From Saururus chinensis (lineage: Eukaryota > Streptophyta > Magnoliopsida > Piperales > Saururaceae): DNA of 64,000 nt. Shown piece by piece: positions 1,900 to 63,600 of this stretch. The first letter of the stretch is position 1. Each line of letters starts with the position of its first letter. Made by a program: the position numbers and the translations under genes. Where the stretch lies: the NCBI GenBank assembly GCA_035235625.1, contig CP141150.1, positions 26,614,756-26,678,755 on the forward strand, written 5' to 3'. The notes below the pieces were generated by a model, which was given only the letters and a program-made list of their open reading frames with translations, had not been told where the DNA came from and searched no databases.

Positions 1900-2270
1900 G
1901 GAAATCACTATTATTTGGATTCCTTAAATAAATAATAGGGGTAGTTTAATAATTTGGTTAATAGTTTAGAAGTTAATTGTCATTTCCTTATAACAATTAT
2001 TTAAGTGTGCTTTAGGGATTTGTTAGTAGGCCTATTAACTCGTCTATTTAAATGTAAGGCTCTAGCCCTAGATTCATTATTCAGTCAATGAAAGGATTAT
2101 TGAGTTAAGAATTTGTGAGCACTAAGTTTTCCCTACTCCGCTTTCCTCCCTTTGTCTAGTCCACTCTGATTACCACTGTCTCTCTTTATTTCCCCTTTCA
2201 TCCAACTTTCACCCCTAAATAATCCCTAATTATCGTCGTAGATCCTACGATCTACATCAAAATCACCTAC
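1900..2270 (+). mobile_element. LTR-like sequence, plus orientation
   Basis: This stretch shares the TCTATTTAAATGTAAGG block and the following GCTCTAGCCCT-like segment with the minus-strand LTR-like piece at 1640-1875. The order (TATTTAAA-like box, then a CT-rich leader at 2130-2210) is what an LTR U3-R-U5 would show. No partner LTR or target duplication was identified. Confidence 0.4.
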
Positions 2271-2745
2271 TTAGTGCTTACTCCCAACCAATGAAGCTAC
2301 CCAAAAAAAATGTTTCTAGGAAAAAAAGAATGGAATATCTACAACTGAATACAATAAATGAAGTAAATGCATTTGTATACTCTACATTACTTATTCATGC
2401 ATGATGAGTTAGTATCCTATACATTACATAATCATGCATGACTACCTAGATCATTTTCCATTCTCGATCCTAGATCTATTGTCTTTGCCAACTAAGACGA
2501 GGTCGAGATCCGAGATGGCAAACTTTGGTGCAGATCACATCTGTACCAAAAAATAGACTAATTTTTTGGGAGGAACAAACTATCGGAATGTTACAGACCA
2601 TTGGATCACCCAAACAGAATATACAGAGAGTCAATGCTTAGTATAAACGCTCATCCCAAAACATAGACCATCATTAGAGCCACCAAAGTGCACAGAAATC
2701 ATGAACTGAACAAAAACTACAGAGGTCTAATGCAAACTGCTTGGT

Positions 2746-3065
2746 GCTCTGATATCATGTAAACCATGTATTGGTTAGCCATAAAAGTGTAAACTAGAGA
2801 TGTTTATGGTTTGATATGGATAGAATAAGAGTGAAGTTTCATTAGGCTTTGGAAAGTGATTTAGCAATCTATTATAGAAAAGGGTTGATCCTGCTGATCA
2901 ACCAAGTACCAACTAAAGAGATTACCTAGGATAAGATGGAAGTGTGCCTCACGGAAGTCGTGTGGGCTGGAAAATACACTATTTACCAAAATTAAAGGTA
3001 ATTTTTACCAAAATAAACTATAGTCATATGGGATGCCTATGATAAAATTAAAGGTAATTTACCAA
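2746..3065 (-). mobile_element. LTR retrotransposon remnant with initiator-Met primer site
   Basis: On the minus strand the 12 bases at 2757-2746 read TGATATCAGAGC, one base from the standard plant initiator-Met primer binding site TGGTATCAGAGC. They directly follow an LTR-type end (minus strand ...TTTACA, plus 2758). So an LTR extends right from 2758 and the decayed element body lies to the left. The right LTR edge is a guess, and the body is not recognisable. Confidence 0.55.
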
Positions 3066-3427
3066 AATGCCCTCTATTTAGTTGGTACAATTACTTGAAT
3101 CCTATCATGAATGTTTGAAGGAAATAAATCTTTCCTGTTCTTTACCAAATTTTTTTCGCAGGTAAAAAAAAAATGAAAAGGTTAATACCATCCCTTGGAA
3201 ATAATTAAAGGACAAATAGTGTATGTGAGCATGAAATGCATACAAATGTGTAGTAACGAGGAAAATTACTAGGATAACATAGAGCAATATTACATAATTT
3301 TCATATTAATTTTTTCAAAATTTGACTAGTTATTTGCTCTTCATTGTAGAACTTGTGTTGTTTATGTACTTTCCTTACTTTTTAACAAGAGCCTGGTTGA
3401 TATATAAGATTTAACAATATGTGGCAG

Positions 3428-3539
3428 GAGCCGAAGTCCTGGAGATGTTGGTAATCCTGGGAATAATTTATATGTGACTGGCTTATCTACACGTGTTACA
3501 TCTAGCGAGCTAGAGAAGTATTTCAATGGTGAAGGAAAG
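3428..3539 (+). CDS. SR45a: SR45a-like exon: end of N-terminal RS region and first half of RRM
   Basis: The exon is preceded by GGCAG and followed by the donor GTATGC. It opens with one base of a split codon and reads SRSPGDVGNPGNNLYVTGLS and on to FNGEGK, including RNP2. It is the most upstream coding exon I can support. Confidence 0.88.
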
Positions 3540-12096: not shown

Positions 12097-12252
12097 ATTA
12101 AATAAGGGAAAATTATTTAAATAATAATTAAAAAATAATAATTACCGTTTTGGACCACTTTGGGAAATATTTCTCAAAGTAGTGTTCCTTTTTGCCACGT
12201 GAGCGCACCAGCGGTTAGCGCTGCGTGACTTTTTTTTTTAATTTTTTTAGTT

Positions 12253-12353
12253 GATTTCATCCTTTAGAAGGACGAAATCAGGTTTAAGTTGATTTCGTCC
12301 TTCTAAAGGACAAAATCACGTAATATTGATTTTGTCCTTTTAAAGAACGAAAT
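12253..12353. repeat. Palindrome cluster, left arm
   Basis: Three near-perfect 26-28-bp palindromes with half-site GATTTCGTCCTT lie at 12253-12279, 12291-12317 and 12328-12353. The same module recurs in all three MULEs of the window. It may be a transposase-binding or cruciform-forming site. Confidence 0.85.
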
Positions 12354-12679
12354 TAAATTAAATTTATTTAAAAAAATTTATTTTAAACTAATTTTAACAC
12401 ATGTCCCTCTTCATTCATTTCATACATACCAAATATAACATTAAAGTATTAACACCATCGAATAAAAACAAACATAAAATAGAAATATTTATCAAATATA
12501 TTACATCACAAGTCGAAAAAATATTTAGTTTTAAAATAAACATACAACAAAGCTAATATCACAATCTTCTACGTCCTCGACCTCGGCCTCGACGGTGTTG
12601 TACGAGCTCCTCCTCATGATCTGCCTGTTTCAGCTATAGTTGTGGCTCCGGCTCGGGATGTGGCTTTAGCTCTGGCTCC

Positions 12680-12940
12680 TCATGTACCTTTGCAACTCGA
12701 GAAGAGTATCTCGACGATGCCGATGCCCCCTCTGGGGGCGCCAGAGATGTAGTTGAAATCCCGACAGAAGATCTCACGGAAAGGATCACAGTTATAGATG
12801 CAGAAGTCGCGGTTGGTGCCGGTGGCAAAGCAGCCGTGCTTTTGGTTAAAGGAGAGGTAGATGAAGGTGGGAAGGGAAGCTGGGTCGGGGTTAGTAGGAT
12901 CGGGGTTGGGGTTGGAGAGAGGCGTGGGGGAGGTGGACAT
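12680..12940 (-). pseudogene. Captured 5' fragment of an ATG18-like autophagy gene (left arm)
   Basis: The minus-strand frame starts [20 protein letters not shown], then [18 protein letters not shown], then [13 protein letters not shown] and [10 protein letters not shown]. This is the start of the first WD40 blade of plant ATG18a-type PROPPINs (family pattern [24 protein letters not shown]...GGIGIVEMLF). The match stops there; after EILF the sequence switches to element tail sequence. About 70 codons are present out of roughly 400 in the family, with no FRRG lipid-binding motif, so no PROPPIN function is possible. It is an unusually clear transduplicated host fragment. Confidence 0.82.
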
Positions 12941-13140
12941 GAAGAGGTGGGGTTAGCTAAAATATTAAAACCGTGGTGTAAAAAACCAGAATTAGTGTCA
13001 CGAGTCTTTAAACTGTACCCAATATGTGGTAGACAGTTGGCTTAGTCATGCATTGAGTTTCCCTGAATTGATTACATGTGGGAGGACTGATTACACTCGA
13101 TGCCAATATGATAATGAAATCGTTCATTTGTATTGCCTCT

Positions 13141-13310
13141 CTAAATATTAAGTACAAATTATAGATTATTGACCTCCTTTTTTGTCTTTTTGTATGGTGC
13201 AGGTGGTACCTTTGCCTTGTATTCATTACTCTGTAGGCATGCAAAATTAAGTGTAGTGCCTAATCAACAGGCTTATGATGAGAAATTATCCACATCTGGG
13301 TTAGAAATTG
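13141..13310 (+). pseudogene. Captured intron/exon fragment of a HAK/KUP potassium transporter
   Basis: After a T-rich tract and acceptor ATGGTGCAG (13194-13202) the frame reads [20 protein letters not shown] then [11 protein letters not shown]. This is the highly conserved plant HAK/KUP/KT segment ([31 protein letters not shown]). The upstream 150-200 bases look like its intron, so the capture was from genomic DNA rather than from cDNA. Only about 34 transporter residues remain. It occupies the loop between the two arms, and one element palindrome lies beside it at 13360-13386. Confidence 0.85.
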
Positions 13311-13497
13311 CAAACCGAACATGGCAAAGTTCTACACCACGGTTTCTTACATATTCTATGATTTCGTCATTTAAAACGACGAAATCAGCACCCTTAGTTT
13401 TTTTTAACTGCTACAGTTTGACTAAGCTTTTATTGCTCTAACTAGCCCTCTGTTTTTTACACCACGGTTTTAATATTTTAGCTAACCCCGCCTCTTC

Positions 13498-13752
13498 ATG
13501 TCCACCTCCCCCTCGCCTCTCTCTAGCCCCAACCCCGATCCTACCAACCCCGACCCAACTTCCCTTCTCACCTTCATTTACCTCTCCATTAACCAAGAGC
13601 ATGACTGCTTTGCCACTGACACCGACCGCGGCTTTTGCATCTATAACTGCGATCATTTCCGTGAGATCTTCTGTCAGGATTTCAACTACATCTCTGGCGC
13701 CCCCGGAGGGGGGGCATCGGCATCGTCGAGATACTCTTCCCGAGTTGCAAAG
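13498..13752 (+). pseudogene. Captured 5' fragment of an ATG18-like autophagy gene (right arm)
   Basis: This is the mirror copy of the ATG18 piece in the left arm: [49 protein letters not shown]. Reading continues through a glycine-rich junction into the element tail SSRVAK...PHPEPEPQL in one open frame (13498-13815), because one base differs from the left arm at the junction. The protein would be a short chimera if made. Sense and antisense copies in one element make a double-stranded RNA source plausible. Confidence 0.82.
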
Positions 13753-13881
13753 GTATGTGAGGAGCTAGAGCTAGAGCCACATCCCGAGCCGGAGCCACAA
13801 CTAGAGCCGAAATAGGCAGATCATGAGGAGGAGCTTGTACAGCACCGTCAAGGCCGAGGTCGAGGACGTAGAAGATTGTGA
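13735..13881 (+). pseudogene. C-terminal tail of a MULE reading frame
   Basis: A tail rich in Glu-Pro repeats ([10 protein letters not shown]) and ending HRQGRGRGRRRL before TGA 13879-13881. The same tail is present inverted in the left arm (about 12560-12720). Basic GRGRGR ends are common on plant transposon and plant-mobile-domain proteins, so I infer it is the element's own ORF end to which the ATG18 piece was joined. An in-frame TAG at about 13813 interrupts it. Confidence 0.5.
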
Positions 13882-14085
13882 TATTAGCTTTGTTGTATGT
13901 TTATTTTAAAACTAAACATTTTTTCGACTTGTGATGTAATATATTTGATAAATATTTCTATTTTATGTTTGTTTTTATTCGATGATGTTAATACTTTAAT
14001 GTTATATTTGGTATGTATGGAATAAATGAACAGGAACATATGTTAAAATTAGTTTAAAATAAATTTTTTTTAAAAAATTTAATTT

Positions 14086-14240
14086 GATTTCGTCCTTTAA
14101 AATGACGAAATTAGTATTACCTGATTTTGTCCTTTAAAAGGACGAAATCGGGTCAAATCTTTTAAAACTTGACCCGATTTTGTCCTTTAGAAGGACGAAA
14201 TCAACTTAAACCTGATTTCATCCTTCTAAAGGACGAAATT
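14086..14240. repeat. Palindrome cluster, right arm
   Basis: Four modules at 14086-14111, 14123-14149, 14176-14202 and 14214-14240, each with AAGGACGAAATC-type right halves. The array is one unit longer than in the left arm. Confidence 0.85.
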
Positions 14241-15898
14241 AACTAAACAAATTAAAAAAAAAAGCCACGCAGGTGCCAGCTGCTTGGCTGGAGCCTGCGT
14301 GGCAAAAAGGAACACCACTTTGGGAAATATTTCCCAAAGTGGTCCAAAATGGTAATTATTATTTTTAATTATTATTTAAATAATTTTCCCATTAAATAAT
14401 TTACAAGAAAATTATATAAATAATATTAAAAATAATAATAGTAATAACGAAGAGATAAAAATAATGACCAAAGTAATGTTATTTTTTGCCACGCAGGCGC
14501 TTGCCATGCGCGGACATCTACATGGCTTTTTTTCTAGTGTTTTTGTCTATGTGAAAGATAAAATCAACTTAAATGATAATTTCGTCCTTTTGAAAGACGA
14601 AATCAACTTTAAATGGTGATTTCATCCTTTTGAACGACGAAATAAAGTCTATACACATAAACCCGGCCGTCTCTTATGCCTTGTGCGTTTTGCCCATCTT
14701 TTCTTTCGCCGCTCTTTCTACCTTGTGCATTCCGCCCCTCGTCTTCGGCATCCTGATCGTCTTTCTACTCCGACTCTTGCTCTCGGTCACTTTCTTGATC
14801 TTTCCCTCCCCTTATGGTAGAAAATATATGCACTTTCTCTGCCCTTCTCTTCTATATTGTTTTCTGTAGGGTTTGGTTTGTGAGTCAATTTCTTGGACAA
14901 CACTAGTGACGACGATAGCCATGTAGATCAGTCCATTCATCTTCTTTTTCACATGATTTAATGTTCACATAGCTGATTATGTGGTTGCTTTTATGTAGTT
15001 TTTAAATCCACTATGGAATTTATGAATGTATTAAGAACTTTCCGTAGTTTTTTACATGGTTTATAGTATTTTTTGTGCATTCTTGTAAGCAAAGATGAAT
15101 TTTGGAAATGAATTCAAATTGGGTACGAGATTAGGGGCACTAATCTTGTTGTGTTTATTATATCAGTCTTTGTTCTTAGGCAATTTCTTTTCGTGATGTT
15201 CAAGCATGTTTTGTTCGCTACTTCATTTAGCACATATATATTTATCACATGAGAGTCAAAATAAGAATGAAGGATTTAATCTAGTTATCTATGTTATATA
15301 TGGTAAATTTTATTTTAGAGATCCTTAATCTTTAGACTAAGTAGGGCTTTTTTTTTGTCTTTTTGGTTTGTACCTCCTATCAAATCTTTGAATAAAAATT
15401 TTGAGTGTGCTTCTGTAATTGTGTTTTTTTCCCTCTTCCAAGTTGTAGAATAAATTTGTGTGTATTGTTTAACTTCGATTAAGGTATATAAACCTTTTTA
15501 TAAAATAGATTCTGTAGAGTAAGGCTTTTTTTTTAATTGATCAAGGAGGCTACAATTTGCCCTTTTTTGTGCGTTTAATATGAACTGAAGAGTATTTTGT
15601 TATAAGTTGACTCTCTTAGGTATGTCTCTAGATACATATGCAGCTGATTAGAACTAAAAGCCACCAAATTCTATAATATATTTTACTATGATGAAACTTG
15701 GTAGTATGAGGCCAAGCATATCTTTGCTTTCCAGTTAGGTTTAGAAATATGAAAGTAATAAAACATCGGAATTGGAGCAGATTTGTCCTTTATGTTATCT
15801 ATCATATAAAAATGGTTATGAATTAAGTGAATACTTCTTGATGGTATATTGTGATGTATCTAAGATTTATATATTTGTTATGAATTAGGTGAATAGAC

Positions 15899-23960: not shown

Positions 23961-26289
23961 TGACTGATTTTTATAATATTTTTTTACTTTTCATGTATTC
24001 CTTTGGTTTAAAACTTGTTTAGCTCATTTATAGTTTCATTTTGATGATAAGATGTACCTTTAAACTAATTTTTGTTAGGATATGTGATGGACATATGATA
24101 CACTACAACACAACGTACTATTAGCAATGCTTTTATTAACGACACATTGCAAAGCGTTGCTAAAAACTACTATATGCGACATATAAAAGTGTCACAAAAT
24201 TTACTTTTTGTGACGCTTTCTAAAAAGCGCTAATAGTACAACTAGTAACGACGCTTTTATAAAAGTGTTGCTAATATTACTACTATTTAAGAAGCTTTTT
24301 AAAAACCACCGCTAATAGTTATAAATTTTAAAAAATAATTAGAACTATTTGTGATGTTTTTATAAAAGTGTCGCAAATAGTATTAATAATAGTGACGCAT
24401 TTATCAAAGCATCGCTGATATTTGTACTATTAGTGACACTTAAAAAATACATCGCGAATAAAATAAAGTTATTTTTAAAAAAAGAATAAAGACTATTATC
24501 GATGTTTTTTTTAAAAGCGTCGCAAATATTACTACTATTAGCAACACTTTTAAAAAAGCATCGCTAATATTTTTATTTATTTATTTAATATTTAAATATA
24601 TAATAAATAAATATTAATTTTTTTTAAAAAATGCAAATATAATATATTTTATATAATATTTATTATTTTTATACATAATAAATAAATAAAATTCCTTTAC
24701 TTTATCCCCACTCTTCCTCAGAGCTGGGGTTCACGTTCACGTGCATAAAAGAGAGAGAGAGGAGTGAAGAGAGAAGAGAAAGAGAAGAGAGAAAGAGGAG
24801 AGAGAGAGCATGCACTAAAGAGAGAAAGACAAGAAAGAGAGTGAAGAGAGAGATCTAGAGAAGACAAAGGAGAGAGAGAGTGGAGAGAAGAGAGAAAAAG
24901 TTGATAGAGAGAGAGACGAGAGGAGAATGGGACGAGAGAGAGAAATAGGGTAGAGAGAGAGGAGAGAAGAGAGAAAGATGAGAAAAAGAGAGAGGAGAGA
25001 TAGAGGGGGAAGAAATTAATTTAGATTTTTTAGGAATTTTTATTATATATTATATTTTAAAATTAATAAAATAAATAAATTAAAATATATTAATGACGCT
25101 TAAGAAATGACGTCGCTAGTACTCTAGGTAGTAGCGACACATATCCATCGCTACTATCTAGTGTACTAACAATGCATTTTCCTATGCATCGCTAATACAT
25201 TTTATTTTATTTTTTATTAATTTAAAAATATAATATATAATAAAAGAGAGATATGAGAGAGAGAAAGAGGGTAGAGAGAGAAAGAAAGAAGAGAGAGAGA
25301 AGATAGAGTGATAGGAGAGTTAAAGATAGAGAGAGAGAGGAGAGGAAAAAGAGAGGATGAGAGAGGAGAGAGGGGGGAAGAAATTAATTTAAATTTTTTG
25401 AGATTTTTATTAGTATTATTATTATATTTTAAAATTAATAAAAAAATTAAAATAAAATATATTAGCGACACATAAGAAATTATGTCGTTAGTACCCTACA
25501 TAGTAGCGACACATATATGCATATGTGTCACTACTACGTAGGGTACTGGCGACACATTTTCCTATGCGTTGATAGTATATTTTATTTTAATTTTTTTATT
25601 AGTTTTAAAATATAATATATAATAAAAGAGAGATAGATGAGAGAGAAAAATAGAGAGAGAGAGGGTAGAGAGAGAGGATAAAGAGAAAGAAAGAAGAGTT
25701 AGAGAGAGGACAAAGAGGATGAGAGGAGATAGAGAGCGGGGGAGAGAGAGAAGAGAGAGAGGACGGAGGTGCTACAGAGAGGGAGAGAGAGGAGGGAGGA
25801 GAGGGTAGAGAAAGAGCACAGAGAGAGGAGAGAGAGTGGAGAGAGGATAGAGAGAGGAGAAGAGAGAAAGAGGGAGTTTATTAAATATTATATTTTTAAA
25901 ATACAAAAAAAGAAATAAAATTAAAAGTTATTAGCAATGCATAGGAATTTCTATTGCTAATACCTTAGGTATTAGCTTCGCATATGCCTATATGTTTTTA
26001 ATGCCTAGTGTATTAGAGACTCTTTTTCCTATGCATCACTAATATATTTATTATTTTAAAATATAATATAAAGGGAAATTTATTTAAATAATAATTTTTT
26101 AAAAAATATTTACCAAATTAGACCACTTTGGGAAGTGTTCCTTTTTGCCACGCAGGCGCCTGCGTGGTTTTTTTTTTAAATTTTTTTATTTCATCTTTTA
26201 AAAGGATGAAATGAGTACTGTGTACTGATTTCGTCCTTTAAAAGGACGAAATCAATACTGTGTAATGATTTCGTAAATGACAAAATCAT

Positions 26290-26761
<472 letters not shown>

Positions 26762-28643
26762 TGTAATGTCCCTGATTTTTTTACGATTTTCTGTGATTTT
26801 CCTGCTATTTTTTTGGTTATTTTCGGTGGGAAAATACAACGCTTTGGCGTATTCATATTTATGTATTTTTCCCCATATTTATACCCGTAGAGTTGGGTGT
26901 GGGGCTTAGTCGCAGGCCGTGGGCCTCGCTGCGTGCTTACGGCGCGAATTTTGGAGGTACAACGCGTAACCGGAAGGTGAACGCGTGTTAGGGACGTGGA
27001 TGTAAAAATTAAAAAGATTAACTATATATACCATTCATCAGATTCCAGAACCGACATTTCGGTTCCAGTAAGAATTCACGTCCAGTAGTTTTTTTAAGAA
27101 CCCGAGCCAGATTTCGGTTGCTCTGTTATCCCTTCTCCGACATCGGATTCCGGTGGTTCTTGTCAGGATCTGCTTTGCCTCACCGCCACAAGTCCGTAGA
27201 CACCGGCTATGACCACCGCCATGGCCTCTTCGCTCCTCTATGAGGTACCGAACCTTTTTCGGTTTTTTTTTTCTCTCCTTCAATCCCGTTTTTGAGCTGT
27301 GGGTGTACGATTTTGACGTTGTTTGTGGCTGCTCTCAACTAGACTTATGTTTAGTTGGCCGCTAGGAACCCATAGGCGCTGGCTAGAGCTGCCGCCGTGC
27401 TTTCTGCGCTCCACTGTGAGCTGCCAGTCTTTTGGTCAGGTTTTTATCACTATTCCCTCTTCACTGTCCGTGGCATTATTTTGTCGCCAGTGTGTTTCCG
27501 GTCGTTGTCCGGCCACCGGTAGGACTCCGTCCAGCCTACCTCGACCCGGTGTCGGTAGGGGGTTGCCGTTCCCGACCCTGCTTCGCCCCTATTGCCTTGC
27601 TCCGCCCAATTAGACGCATTGGGTGTGTCTCGGGTTGTTGCCATCGACGAGTCGTGGGCCATTTGGCCATCATGGGCTCCACCCCGGCTCAGCGACAGTG
27701 AGGGCCAGCCTCACTTGGCCCGATTATACACTCCGCTCGGAATAGGCCGCTTGCCCTGCCTATACCATACGAGATGCACAGCCGCCCGCACCATGGTGTT
27801 GGTTGTGGGTGGCTATCGGCGATGTCGCCGCTTCAATCGGCCACCATGTCTTGGCCTTAGCTCAGCCGTCCTTATGTGGGCCTTGGGTCACCACCGTCCG
27901 ACCCATCTCCCCCTATAGTGGCACTGTTTGGCCGCATGTGCATGTGGCCATGCGTGCATTTTTGGGTTTAGGCGCCGTATTTGTGCCGCCTGACCATCGG
28001 TTGGCTTTGCCACCGAGTGGAGTTGACACATAGCCCTCCTCCACCTCTCCTCTATCCTCGAGCGTTGCCCCACGCTCTCCGCCCTTATGTGGGCCTTTGT
28101 TGACCGAAATCGTCGCCGTTGGGTGCTGTCCACGGCCGATTTCAACGTTTTGTGGTCGGCCGAGTACGTCTTAGCCATCGGCCAATCTTCAATGAGTACA
28201 CCCTCGACATCTAGTTGCATCGCCATTCTTGTTGGCTTGATTTTTCTCCCGGCCGCCTTAGTGTGCCACCGTCGATCGCGGGTTTTACTGCATTGATTTT
28301 TGACACCTTGTTTGGCCGTGATTGTTTCCAGCACTTCTTAAAATCCTCGGGACAACAGCTCTCTCAGCTAGGCAACGGTTTTGACCGCCAGCTCCGTCGT
28401 CGACGCCGCCACCGTCATGTGCTTGCCATAGAACGTCATGATTACAAGGTAGGGGAGCTTTGAACTCATAAATTCATGATAGCATGCTTTGAATGAGTAG
28501 CAGCATGCTAGGATTGTATGATTCCATGCTTTGGATGTTAAGTAACGATCTGATTGCATGATGTGCATGTAAGCATGATGATATGGTATGTTGAAATGCA
28601 TATGACATGCATGTTGGCTGTAAGTATGTTGGATGTAAGTATG

Positions 28644-28965
28644 TGCTAGTGATGACTAGCGTGTTTGTTGGTAAGTTTCATATGTTGTTTGAGTATGTGC
28701 TAGTGATGGATAGCGTGTATGTTGACGTATGTATGCATATGCTAGTGATGGCTAGCGTGCATGTTTGGAGTATGTATGGATTATGCATGTGCTAGTGATG
28801 GCTAGCGTGTATGTTGAAGTATGTGTATATATGTGCTAGTGATGGCTAGCGTGTATGTTTGAAGCATGTATGGATGCGTATGTATGTGCTAGTGATGGCT
28901 AGCGTGTATGTTAAACGTATGTGTATGTATGTGCGCTAGTGATGGCTAGCGAGTATGATAGTAAG
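28644..28965. repeat. Minisatellite in the solo LTR, unit GCTAGTGATGGCTAGCG
   Basis: Seven units of GCTAGTGATGGCTAGCGTGT, spaced about 44-56 bases apart by TATG/TGTA-rich filler. The core is partly self-complementary (GCTAG...CTAGC). Confidence 0.9.
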
Positions 28966-29689
28966 CTATGTATAAAAGTACGTGTATGTTATACGTATGT
29001 GTGATAGACATACGTATGTATGATGGCTAATGGCCTATGCTATGGACATGTGTAAGTGTATGCGGGCAGAGGTATGGGCGATGGATAGTAAGAGGTGACA
29101 GAGGCTTCATCTGGATTGGATGTGGGATGCGTAAGCATATGAAAGATGACAGAGAATATGAGTATGATGGGCAAGGATTTGGAGCGGTTTGTTTGGTTTG
29201 TATCAGAGTGTATGTTGGGGGACTGTCAGATAGTAAGAGTGTGCATAATTGTACAAGCATAATGTACAAATTATGAAGTGAAAAGTAAGCTCAACAAGTG
29301 AGGTATAAGTAAGAGGGTGATAACTGAGTTTGGCTCTGAGGAGCTTCAGTTGATGATGTCAGTGTAAGATGTTTTGGCCATAAGGTGGATGGCAGAGTAT
29401 GTAAGACTATAAGATTTTGGTGTACGGTGAGTTTTGATCCTGATATGGACGAGTTAAGGAAGTCTGCTGCCTTGACGAACTAGGGTTTCGGATCGGGCTC
29501 AGCTTCAGTTTGATCAGTCGAGCACTGTGAGTTTGTGTGGCATAATTGTACCACATAATTTACTTAATTCAAACTTGAATTATAAAAAAGCTAATGATAG
29601 CGTTGTGAGTTTGAGACCTGAGGGTTCGACGGATTAAGTTCCGTGTTTGAGCTAGCCGATAATGAGTCAGCTGAGCATTTATCATGTCT

Positions 29690-30095
29690 TGCCATGGTGT
29701 TTATCCTGCGGGATATTGTCTGTGTGCTGTGTAGAGCACCAGACATCTTTTGCTCTATTGAGAGCGACATATGTTTTCGATTTGGTCTGCGGCTGTATAA
29801 GCCCAGACATTTGATGTTCTGTTGAGAGCGATGTACGTTTCCGACTTTATCTGTGTGCTGTATGAAGCCCAGACGTTTGATGCTTTGTTGAGAGCGATAT
29901 ATGCTTTCGATTTGGTCTGTGTGCTATATAAGCCTAGATGTTTGATGCTCTATTGAGAGCGTTGTATGTTTCTGCCCAAGAGTGGCACTGGCACTATAAG
30001 ACCCATTATGGTGGGCAATTCTATAGCACTATAAGACCCATTATGGTGGGCAATTCTCTGGCACTATAAGACCCATTATGGTGGGCAACTGTATG
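29690..30095. repeat. Two adjacent tandem arrays in the solo LTR
   Basis: About four copies of an ~84-bp unit (TTGAGAGCG.....TTTCGATTTGGTCTG...AGCCCAGA) span 29690-29970. They are followed by three copies of a ~38-bp unit containing GCACTATAAGACCCATTATG at 29990-30095. Confidence 0.88.
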
Positions 30096-30309
30096 ACCCC
30101 TTATGTGTGGGTGTTTATGTTTGCGCGCTCAGGTAAGTAGTATCATGGATCTACTCTTACCTGTTTGATCCAGTGCCCCATGAGCATTGGTGTGCCTTAC
30201 CTTCGGAAAAGTCCATGGCGTCTAGTCACTCCCCGGAGGTTAAGGTGTTTCCCCAGTGGCATTCTTTTCCATTTCGACGCTGGAGCTTATTAGTTGTAAT
30301 GAGCTTCAG

Positions 30310-30760
30310 TGGTCGTTGATATGTGTATGATTATGAGTTTGAGCACGACTGTAAGCGTCTGTGTATGAGAACGACTGTAAGTGTATGAGTATGAGTATGA
30401 CTGTAAACGTATGAATATGAGCACGACTGTAAGAGTATGTGTATGAATACGATTGTGAGAGTATGTTTCAGAGTAAGACAGTAAGTGTGATTTTTTGTAA
30501 GCTGTACAAGTAAGGTCGTACAGGTATGTGTAAGCTGTATGAGTGAGCATATGATTGTACGAGTAAGGTCGTACAAGTATGCGTATGTTGTATGAGTATG
30601 CGTACAATGGTACGAGTAAGTTTGTAAGGCCCTGGTTAGGGGTGTTTGTGTAAGTTTAATTTGATGGTATGATTTTGGCACGATGGTGCCTTTGGTATGA
30701 TTTTGGCACGATTGTGCATTTGGTATGACTTTGGCACGATAGTGCATTTGGTATGTTTGT
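30310..30760. repeat. Further short tandem repeats in the solo LTR
   Basis: Units of GAGTATGAGCACGACTGTAA-type sequence run to about 30620. They are followed by three copies of a ~31-bp unit with TTTGGTATGATTTTGGCACG. Confidence 0.85.
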
Positions 30761-32011
30761 ATGTGCATGGGCATGATATTGATATGCCTATCTGCTTCAT
30801 GTTTGAGTTGCATGAACGCATGTATTTATGAACTTTTGAGTTCACCGTTTGGGATTTCCCCTACTGGGTATTTTCCTACTGAGTATGAAAATACTCACCC
30901 TACCATTTTTTTAGCCCCGTGGTTCGGGAGGCTTTTGCAGGTTTGTGATGGAGAGCTCCTGGAGATGGATGCTCATTTTAGCGGTGGATTGATTCCCGTT
31001 GACTCAGGTATATGCTTGACTCACTACGAGTTTATTTGTGCCACGATCTAATGTATTGGATGAGACAAACGTTAAGATGTTTATTCATTCTGGACTTTCA
31101 TTTGGATTAGTCTGTGGACTGTTATGGGACTTGCACTCAGGGATGCTTGGGAGTGATTTGTATTTAAAGTCTATGATCATAGCAATTTAGTCGTACGTGT
31201 GTTTTCGAGTAGCGCTTGAGGATATTTGCTTTAGCCGTACGATGGTTAATCGAGTGATTAAAACTTTGGATGAGAAAAGTGATGTGTTATGTTTTAAGTT
31301 ATAAAACTGTTTTATCAGGTTTTGTATTCGTCAATTTCTCTGATTTATAGCAGTTATATTGCAAAAAATTTCCATGAATTTTGAGGAAAATGTGTGAAAA
31401 ATCTTGGGCGTTACACTCTCTCTCTCTCTCTCTTTTATCTCTCCACTCTCTCTCTTCTCTCCTCTTTCTCTCTCTTCACTCTCTCCTCGCTTATTCCACT
31501 CTCTCTCTCTCTCTTCATTCTCTTAAAGAGGAGAGAGAAATAGGAGAGAGAGAAGGGAAAGAGGAGAGAGAGTGGAGAGAGAGAAGAGAGAGTGAATAGA
31601 GAGAGAAAGAGGAGAGAAGAGAGAGAAAGTGGAGAGAGGAGAGAGAGTGAAGAGAGAGAGAGGAGAGAGAGGGAAGGGAGGGAGTATTGATTTCGTCCTT
31701 TTAACTGACAAAATAAAATTTTTTTTTTAAAAAAGCCACGCAGGTGCCAGCCATGCAGCTGGCGCCTGCGTGGCAAAAAGGAACACCACTTTGGGAAATA
31801 TTTCCCAAAGTGGTCTAATTTGGTAAATATTTTTTAAAAAATTATTAATTAAATAAATTTCCCTAATATAAAAGTAAAAAATTCTAAAAAAATTAAAATT
31901 AAATTCCCATGTCTTTGTTGAAGCTGGAGTCACGTTGATGCGCATGAGAGAAGGAGGAGGAGAGAGGAGAGAGAGTGAAGAGAGACGTGAGAGAGCGGGA
32001 GAGAGTGAAGA

Positions 32012-59510: not shown

Positions 59511-59839
59511 CATCGCTGGTTGGTTAATTGAATATTCGAAAATTTTGTTTCGGTATTTTATATGATTTGGTTTGAAAATTTATGATATGGTGTGATGAAA
59601 TACGTAATTGATTTAATGGAATATAAATGAGCAATTTCATAGTATGTTTGTAAATTGGAAGCATGAACTACTATAATTGGTTAATTTGAGGTCGTAAGCT
59701 AAGTTTGATTTAAATATTGATTAGTTGAAGTAAGGTTGGGTATGTATATCTTAAGATGAAATGTAAATATGCAACTTTATGTGAGTTCCCTAAATTATTT
59801 TTTCCCATGTATTGTAGGATGTGATCTGATTTATATCAA

Positions 59840-61262
59840 GGAGGAGACAATATACCCTAGTGTAATAGATAAAACGAAGTTAACTGATAGGGCCTAACTG
59901 ATGACTAGTAGATGCTGAGAGGCTTTTTTTTTTTTGCAAAATACATTGTCTGGTCATTAGATTTGATCAAGTTAGGTATATATTTAGGAAGATAAAGATG
60001 CATGTATATAAGTTGTTTTATGAAACATATCTTGTGTGTTTGGTGATTAATGTGAATGCATGCCTTTGCTAGATAATAAAAGGTGAAAAGTAATTTACTG
60101 ATTATATAATTTTTGTTGCTACGCTAAGTAAGAATAATATAGCTCATTAGTTTATTTTTATCCATGCTTTGAAAGATTTTATATGATTAATAACAAGGGG
60201 GAGACCTTATAACCAAGTTTCTAAGGATTAGACGAAGTTAACTGATAGGGCCTAACTGTTTACTAGTAGATGTTAGAAGGCTTTTTATTTTACAAACTAC
60301 ATTGTCTGGTCATTAGATTTGATCAAGTTAGGTATATATTTAGGAAGATAAATATGTGTGTATGCAATTTCTTTTATGAAACATATCTTGTGTGTTTGGT
60401 GATTAATGTGAATGCATGCCTTTGCTAGATAATAAAAGATGAAAAATAATTCACTGATTATGTAATTTTTGTTGGTAGGCTAAGTAAGAATAATATAGCT
60501 CATTAGTTTAGTTTTACCCATGCTTTGAAAGATGTTATATGACTAATAACAAAGGGGAGACCATATAACAAAGTTTCTAAGGATTAGACGAAGTTAACTG
60601 AGAAGGCCTAACTGTTGACTGGTAGATGTTAGGTGGCTTTTTTTGGAAAAGTATATTGTCTAGTCATTAGATTTGATCAAGTTAGGTATATATTTAAGAA
60701 GATAAAGTTGCATGTATGTAAGTTCTTTTATGAAACATATCTTGTGTGTTTAGTGATTAGTGTGAATGCATGCTTTTGCTAGATAATAAAAGAGAAAAGT
60801 AATTCACTAATTATGTAATTTTTGTTAGTACGCTAAGTAAGAATAATATAGCTCATTAGTTTAGTTTTACCCATGCTTTGAAAAATGTTATATGATTAAT
60901 AACAAGGGGGAGACCATATAACTAAGTTTTTAAGTATTAGACGAAGTTAATTGATAGGGCTTAACTGTTGACTAGCACATATTAGGAGGTTTTTTTCTTA
61001 CAAAAAGTACATTGTGTGATCATTAGATTTGATCAAGGTAGGTTTACATATGGGTAGATAAATAAGAGATTATGTAAGTTATATTTTTAAACTAATCTTG
61101 TGTGTTTGGTGCTTAGTGTGCATGCTTGTAATAGATAATAATAGATGGAAAATAATTAAATGATTATATATGTTTTGTTGGTAGGCTTAGTCAGAAGAAT
61201 ATAGCTCATTAGTTTTACTCTTGATTTGAAGGATGTGACCTGTGTGAGGTCCACAAGTTGAG
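59840..61262. repeat. Four-copy ~355-bp tandem repeat
   Basis: Copies are anchored by CGAAGTTAACTGATAGGGCC at about 59875, 60233, 60589 and 60942 (spacings 358, 356 and 353). Each unit also holds AGGTATATATTTAGGAAGAT and TTTGCTAGATAATAAAAG. The first and last copies are the most diverged, as in an ageing array. The units are non-coding. Confidence 0.93.
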
Positions 61263-63049: not shown

Positions 63050-63600
63050 TCATATGGAATGTTGCATAATTTGGTATGTAACCCTATGCCTCATGGTGCA
63101 CATGTCCTCCCTGGTAAAGTTAAATTGGTACCCATGTGGCAAGTACCACATATAAATGCATACGCACACACTACAATCATTGTTATTAATTTGTTGTGGG
63201 TGTCCAGTTATCTCTCTCACTGAGAGACGCAAGGTAGCAGTTGCTTCATATCCCAATTTCAACAGAACTATGGGCAAAACATGTCTTGGTATGGCTAAAT
63301 TTTTGTAGTATTGCTCTATCATAGCTCCAGAGTAATAAGGGTCCATTATGTATATGACATCCTTCTTCAAGTTAAGTAAAATGAGAGTCCAATGGTTACA
63401 GTTTACATGAAGCAGGAAGTGGTGGATGTCATATCCTAGAAGTCTTTTTCATTCACCTTCATCAACTTCACAATGCTTGTGGGAACCTCTTGCCATGCTT
63501 TTGCAATAGCAGCCCTGAAGACTGGCTTCCTTTTCCTTCATTAATACGTACAAGCTGAGGAGCAGAGATGCATCCATCCTCATGAGCTCCTGTCGAATAC
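63050..63600 (-). pseudogene. Ulp1-type (C48) cysteine protease domain, broken
   Basis: The minus frame ending at 63050 reads, from upstream, HVNCNHWTLILLNL, KKDVIYIMDPYYSG, then GHPQQINNNDCSVCVCIYMW and QFNFTREDMCTMRHRVTYQI. These are the catalytic blocks of SUMO/Ulp1-like proteases: His in NHW, Asp in MDP, Gln in PQQ and Cys in NDC are all present. Upstream the frame breaks near 63450, with FRAAIAKAWQEVPTSI in another frame, and a possible acceptor TTCGACAG lies near 63592. In plants such domains occur both in host genes and in MULE or CACTA transposons; the setting here favours a transposon origin, but no terminal repeats were seen before the window ends. Confidence 0.72.

Follow-up and report, generated by a model that had tools for sequence, protein, structure and literature searches.

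A Mutator-like hairpin with captured ATG18 and HAK/KUP fragments in Saururus chinensis and a sister locus that is most likely its birthplace

Introduction

The question addressed here is how plant Mutator-like elements (MULEs) pick up host genes. In the sections available, a study of MULEs with duplicated or extended terminal inverted repeats (TIRs) describes the mechanism of gene acquisition as yet to be understood (Ferguson and Jiang 2012, PMC3310237), and the accessible text of a study on animal Pack-TIRs leaves open whether its gap-filling model applies to plant Pack-MULEs (PMC8277862). In maize, Mu killer is described in the available portions of PMC3440606 as an inverted duplication in which both TIRs come from the same end, and its silencing is argued there to be tied to antisense transcripts and not to flanking read-through. 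The available parts of two further papers discuss TIR fold-back into siRNA precursors (PMC4858842) and review siRNAs from captured genes in maize (PMC13317346).

Here, we analyzed a 64,000-nucleotide stretch of the Saururus chinensis genome (C11:26614756-26678755, hereafter the window), which contains a MULE that resembles these systems and differs from each of them. In common with Pack-MULEs, it has MULE TIRs, a 9-bp target site duplication (TSD), the captured 5' end of a host gene and many copies at distinct sites, and a second captured fragment retains its intron. In contrast to Pack-MULEs, it is a foldback from end to end, its gene piece being part of each arm, and its birth event is apparently readable at a sister locus on C8. 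Judging from the available sections of PMC3440606, it shares with Mu killer the two TIRs from one end and the inverted duplication of adjacent sequence, and a long hairpin RNA is proposed there as well; it differs in carrying host-gene pieces instead of mudrA, in having transposed with its own TSD and in having no known silencing activity. The elements of Ferguson and Jiang have tandem TIRs (PMC3310237), whereas an inverted arm, a flank and filler are found here. Animal Pack-TIRs, attributed in the accessible text of PMC8277862 to gap filling and template switching, similarly have filler inside TIR elements and microhomology at breakpoints (median 2 bp), but the window element is a plant MULE. 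In the open literature searched, we found no description of a hairpin Pack-MULE whose place of origin had been traced and no paper in which ATG18 is named together with a Pack-MULE.

Results and discussion

Structure of the window element

The 2,285-bp element at 12106-14390 starts with GGGAAAATTATTT... at 12106, has the complement of this sequence at 14390, and is flanked on both sides by the 9-bp TSD ATTAAATAA (9/9 match), as claimed in an earlier sequence-only reading of the window. The mirrored arms of about 0.9 kb described in that reading were also recovered, at 12106-12986 and 13452-14390. They show 66 differences per 880 aligned bases (7.5%) in addition to indels, and enclose a loop of 465 bp. 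Folding of the plus-strand RNA predicted 848 cross-arm pairs; with G-U pairs counted, 15 helices run without interruption for 21 bp or more. The element and its TSDs are composed as follows.

12097..12105, no strand: left TSD ATTAAATAA
12106..12380, minus strand: left TIR with subterminal palindromic GATTTCGTCCTTT-AAAGGACGAAATC repeats
12381..12673, minus strand: P module, left copy, 95% identical to the right copy
12676..12947, minus strand: ATG18 5' coding fragment, left copy, with its ATG at 12940
12948..12986, minus strand: 39 bp of the upstream module U at the inner end of the left arm; CC at 12986-12987 is common with the HAK donor
12987..13335, plus strand: HAK/KUP fragment, intron to 13202 and exon from 13203; donor C1:64872761-64873109, 93%
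13333..13345, plus strand: TACACCACGGTTT patch at the right HAK junction, which repeats a short piece of inner sequence from the arm itself
13347..13490, plus strand: upstream module U, complete in the right arm only
13491..13764, plus strand: ATG18 5' coding fragment, right copy, with its ATG at 13498 and a 2-bp frameshift near 13705
13765..14059, plus strand: P module, right copy
14060..14390, plus strand: right subterminal repeats and TIR
14391..14399, no strand: right TSD ATTAAATAA

The TIR is shared with a MULE family, all 40 scored matches (from 2728 first-look candidates) being at least 91% identical, and the P module, about 300 bp in each arm and not mentioned in the earlier reading, is frequent elsewhere in the genome (40 of 1007 first-look candidates scored). 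An inverted duplication of one element end is present in both the window element and the C8 copy.

The ATG18 fragments, read from 13498 on the plus strand and from 12940 on the minus strand, both begin MSTSP..., in agreement with the proposed ATG18-like starts of opposite orientation in the two arms. Consistent with this identity, the right-arm fragment matched WIPI3/ATG18 chains (best E 2.2e-4); a Pfam search with the two short fragments gave no match up to E 1. The HAK/KUP exon start at 13203 matched potassium transporter 5 (E 9e-8). The left-arm ATG18 frame is open for 86 codons, with a stop six codons past a 10-residue stretch, and a 2-bp insertion shifts the right-arm frame. The longest stop-to-stop frames listed within 12106-14390 are 141 and 135 codons, and neither Rfam at gathering scores nor ARAGORN returned a match. 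The MULE TIRs, the TSD and the pieces of ATG18 and HAK/KUP thus uphold the reading as a Pack-MULE foldback with two unrelated host genes, and the element is probably a decayed, non-coding Pack-MULE hairpin. Hairpins are hard to assemble, and we considered an assembly artefact or a chance palindrome; this was rejected as highly improbable because the arms differ at 7.5% of sites, a perfect TSD flanks the element and other loci carry hairpins with other loops.

Origin of the captured gene pieces

The donor of the HAK/KUP piece is clear. The loop aligns with C1:64872761-64873109 at 93% over 349 bp, intron included, and this locus is surrounded by K_trans and K_trans_C exons (Pfam). Full-length matches to the HAK loop were found at only three places, namely the window, the C8 copy and the HAK gene on C1 (5/5 candidates scored). 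The loop carries the intron end and exon start of a HAK/KUP transporter as had been read from the sequence, but the captured stretch is wider (12987-13335) than the 13203-13304 named at that time.

For ATG18, a related gene was found in the same genome. Five PROPPIN matches were found, one with internal stops (all 11 first-look candidates scored). The gene closest to the arms, C2:56693192, was assigned to PROPPIN by Pfam (93.8 bits). Its identity to the arms is 76-79% in a block of about 190 bp and 83-86% in one of 66 bp; about 150 bp of this gene, between the two aligned blocks, are missing from the element. The simple copy L041 is nearer to the same gene (82% over 176 bp). We take the capture of ATG18 by the MULE family to be old, and its donor may be the C2 gene or a lost relative.

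Hairpins and other copies in the MULE family

The ATG18-bearing foldback had been regarded as unusual, but capture of ATG18 is a trait of the family. In the genome (516 Mb, 11 contigs), the fragment occurs in 40 stretches (41 rows) at no fewer than 33 loci, a lower bound as 40 of 157 first-look candidates were scored, and both arms were seen at 7 of these loci. Family copies were collected at 28 loci including the window, and the 25 with two recognizable ends were mapped, L011, L022 and L039 being omitted as one end is lacking. Nor is the foldback special to the window element, as seven of the mapped copies form full hairpins whose arms each carry ATG18 and P (window, L009, L012, L015, L023, L034 and L037); the arms of L037 lack the ATG18 start and have practically no loop between them. 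The other mapped copies comprise four hairpins with a shortened left arm (L026, L035, L036 and L038), seven mixed copies in which one arm is full and the other holds a different ATG18 piece (L010, L013, L014, L016, L017, L018 and L025), five single-arm copies (L019, L020, L021, L024 and L027) and two simpler elements without the P module (L040 and L041). A 9/9 TSD was found for 16 of the 25, a rate that is not blind as the ends were chosen partly by TSD search.

The different ATG18 piece in the mixed copies is 72-75% identical to that of the window, and in the two of the seven that were compared (L014 and L016) it has another start and end within the gene, which points to a second capture. The sequences thereby suggest that ATG18 was captured twice by one MULE family.

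The hairpins fall into five loop classes: HAK (window and L009), L012/L023/L034, L026/L035/L036/L038, L015 and L037. L015 and the L026 group have about the first 120 loop bases in common and may therefore be related, and 154-180 loop bases of the L012 group are common with the mixed elements. In a tree of 40 arms, the shortened arms, L039 included, formed one clade (100/100), and the two arms of the same copy were paired in L015 (97/91), L037 (90/85) and L023 (99/96); the window arms paired weakly (49/76) and the C8 arms did not pair. The differing loops suggest that hairpins formed repeatedly in this family. Since gene conversion between arms could yield the same pairing in the tree, the number of independent hairpin events is something that we infer.

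The sister copy on C8

The sister copy (L009, C8:6267102) shares the HAK piece and both junction positions with the window copy. The junctions are alike in the two copies, with CC on the left and, on the right, TAC followed by the 13-nt patch and then the family's TACATATTC; the U module is complete in the right arm and reduced to just 39 bp in the left. The C8 palindrome (2173-3448 / 3975-5235 of L009) extends 430 bp past the TIR into the flank, and the two sides of this inverted flank are 94% identical. Among the candidates scored (40/171), the flank was matched over its full length nowhere but on either side of this hairpin, the next-best match in the genome being 70% over 336 bp. Moreover, an inverted flank was seen in none of the other 10 hairpin-type copies checked, including the window (about 200 bp of flank were covered for L034-L038).

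The nine bases adjoining the C8 unit are exact inverted copies of each other (9/9), and as a TSD they match at only 4/9. A further TIR, the outer right one, has its end 546 bp to the right of the unit. The sequence outside it, TTTAAATAA, matches the left flank TTTAAACAA at 8/9, so that a near-perfect TSD encloses the unit, and AAAAAA stands where the inverted flank joins the outer TIR. This outer right TIR is the odd one of the five compared, with 83-89% identity to the rest versus 89-96% among the other four. Insertion of an element amid a palindromic site was considered for C8 and rejected, as direct repeats would be expected and exact inverted copies are seen; it is further opposed by the failure to find a third full-length copy of the flank (40/171 candidates scored). 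Another MULE copy (L009 19-1525) has an 8/9 TSD and is found some 1.1 kb to the left of this hairpin.

Birth and movement of the HAK hairpin

We consider it probable that an older ATG18-bearing MULE was converted by one repair at C8 into the HAK hairpin, which then jumped to the window, and C8 is most likely the birthplace of this hairpin. The HAK loop and its junctions are common to both copies, the window copy has its TSD and the C8 copy has its inverted flank; the order of events and the repair pathway are what we infer. In the proposed history, an older MULE family would already have carried a captured ATG18 5' end when one member, now at C8:6267102, lost internal sequence. The break would have been repaired by inverted copying of the element's own left side (flank, TIR, P, ATG18 and U), with a detour through the HAK gene on C1 as filler. 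The template switches would have run from the outer TIR to the inverted flank and arm, the 13-nt patch, HAK and finally the left arm, and matching sequence of 2, 3 and 6 bp is found at three of the four switch points. The product would be a new unit whose outward TIRs are both copies of a single end, and this unit would have jumped to the C11 site of the window and left the 9-bp TSD there. A whole U module in the right arm and 39 bp of it in the left are expected if the left is the broken end and the right its copy, and the outer right TIR is expected to be the most divergent if it is the other end of the original element.

We also favor, somewhat less firmly, the view that C8 is a readable fossil in which a single repair both captured the HAK piece and made a mobile hairpin of the Mu killer type. 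If so, plant MULEs would acquire genes and give rise to hairpins through a single process, microhomology-guided template switching, which this family would have undergone several times (five loop classes, not all of them necessarily independent). The C8 locus appears to have retained the junctions of the break along with the copied flank and the filler, after the product moved on with a clean TSD, which suggests how Mu-killer-like hairpins can arise and spread.

The divergence of the C8 arms and flank bears on a different history, in which the HAK hairpin arose elsewhere and reached C8 by insertion with a TSD; a later break in the right arm would then have been repaired from the left arm and flank, which would have produced the inverted flank. 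Overall, the flank is less diverged than the arms (18/418 versus 88/816 at all sites, p 9e-5), and this persists outside CG/CHG sites (16/408, 3.9%, versus 49/677, 7.2%, p 0.025), so that the flank may postdate the arms and may have been copied later. In contrast, transversions are equal (11/418, 2.6%, in the flank and 22/816, 2.7%, in the arms), and the window arms outside CG/CHG (33/739) agree with the C8 flank. The excess in the C8 arms may come from CHH decay, as the arms are GC-richer (40% versus 21% GC).

Signs of exchange between arms are also in keeping with a later repair. In the arm tree, the window and C8 arms were not grouped left with left, and a shared-site test of arm descent between the two copies gave flat counts (8, 6 and 8) with no clear signal. 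Several sites link the window left TIR with the inner right TIR of the C8 copy, and the same bases at 14100-14111 are missing from both C8 arms and kept in both window arms. These crosswise shared sites and shared losses need either exchange between arms or parallel change, and hint at gene conversion between the arms of one hairpin. A later repair would, however, require two separate repair events and a lost birthplace, and the equal transversion rates and the outer right TIR, which fits the other end of the original element, argue against it. We therefore regard this history as unlikely, and prefer birth of the hairpin at C8.

Decay and silencing potential

Changes in the arms are mostly of the C-to-T type and fall at CG and CHG sites, the pattern of decay in methylated transposons. 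Full hairpins (14 arms) showed CG and CHG decay of 14.5% and 10.5%, compared with 16.5% and 12.2% for six single-arm copies and 11.2% and 12.0% for seven mixed copies; these groups leave out 11 of the 38 aligned arms, namely shortened hairpins, L011 and the two simple copies. Accordingly, the hairpins in these groups show no consistent excess of decay, being no more decayed than the single-arm copies and above the mixed copies at CG and not at CHG or CHH.

By a crude reading, with approximate starts set by motif, frames are open up to an IVEI motif in 9 of 38 arms. A new protein gene translated from the captured ATG18 start, for which the 86 open codons of the left arm could be cited, was rejected on these few open arms, the frameshift in the window right arm and the dominance of C-to-T type decay, and we give it hardly any credence.

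It had also been proposed that a read-through transcript would fold into a long double-stranded RNA directed against ATG18 and perhaps HAK transcripts. Indeed, folding predicts a long, near-perfect duplex, but its sequence lends the proposal little support. An inverted-repeat silencer needs near-identity between duplex and target, which the duplex does not have with ATG18: neither window arm has a perfect 21-mer match to the closest ATG18 gene (0/242 each), the longest exact run is 16, and none of 642 duplex 21-mers occurs in the five ATG18 loci. With up to two mismatches to the C2 ATG18 gene, 35/242 21-mers of the right arm and 10/242 of the left arm were recovered, and elsewhere in the family exact ATG18 21-mers are present in one C8 arm (2) and in L041 (5). 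The HAK exon retains 48/111 21-mers exact to the C1 gene, but the HAK piece sits in the unpaired loop, outside the duplex. A natural silencing locus for ATG18 (and HAK), which would draw on the long duplex, the 35 near matches and the exact 21-mers of the two other copies, is thus quite improbable given the missing perfect matches from the window arms, the unpaired HAK piece and the lack of a consistent CG/CHG decay excess in hairpins, and on sequence grounds silencing of ATG18 by the window element is weakly supported. In contrast, 517 of the 642 duplex 21-mers have an exact match in one or more of the 27 other family loci collected. If the element is transcribed, self-silencing of the MULE family, as proposed for Mu killer, would therefore be most likely its effect, rather than control of autophagy or potassium. 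These data suggest that a gene is not necessarily at risk from a hairpin that carries a piece of it.

Other features of the window

Immediately to the right of the element, at 14405-14646, the same MULE family is represented by a further, diverged TIR (about 66-68%). A second member of this family lies at 26073-31863 with a perfect 9-bp TSD (TAATATAAA), and contains a stretch of about 4.6 kb between CT-rich arrays that starts with TGTAATG and ends with TTACA, like a long solo LTR. A tandem array at 59795-61236 has long units about 357 bp apart that are 77-85% alike. At 63053-63448 on the minus strand, a Ulp1/C48 protease fragment was identified (Pfam, 42 bits), a type of gene known from MULEs too.
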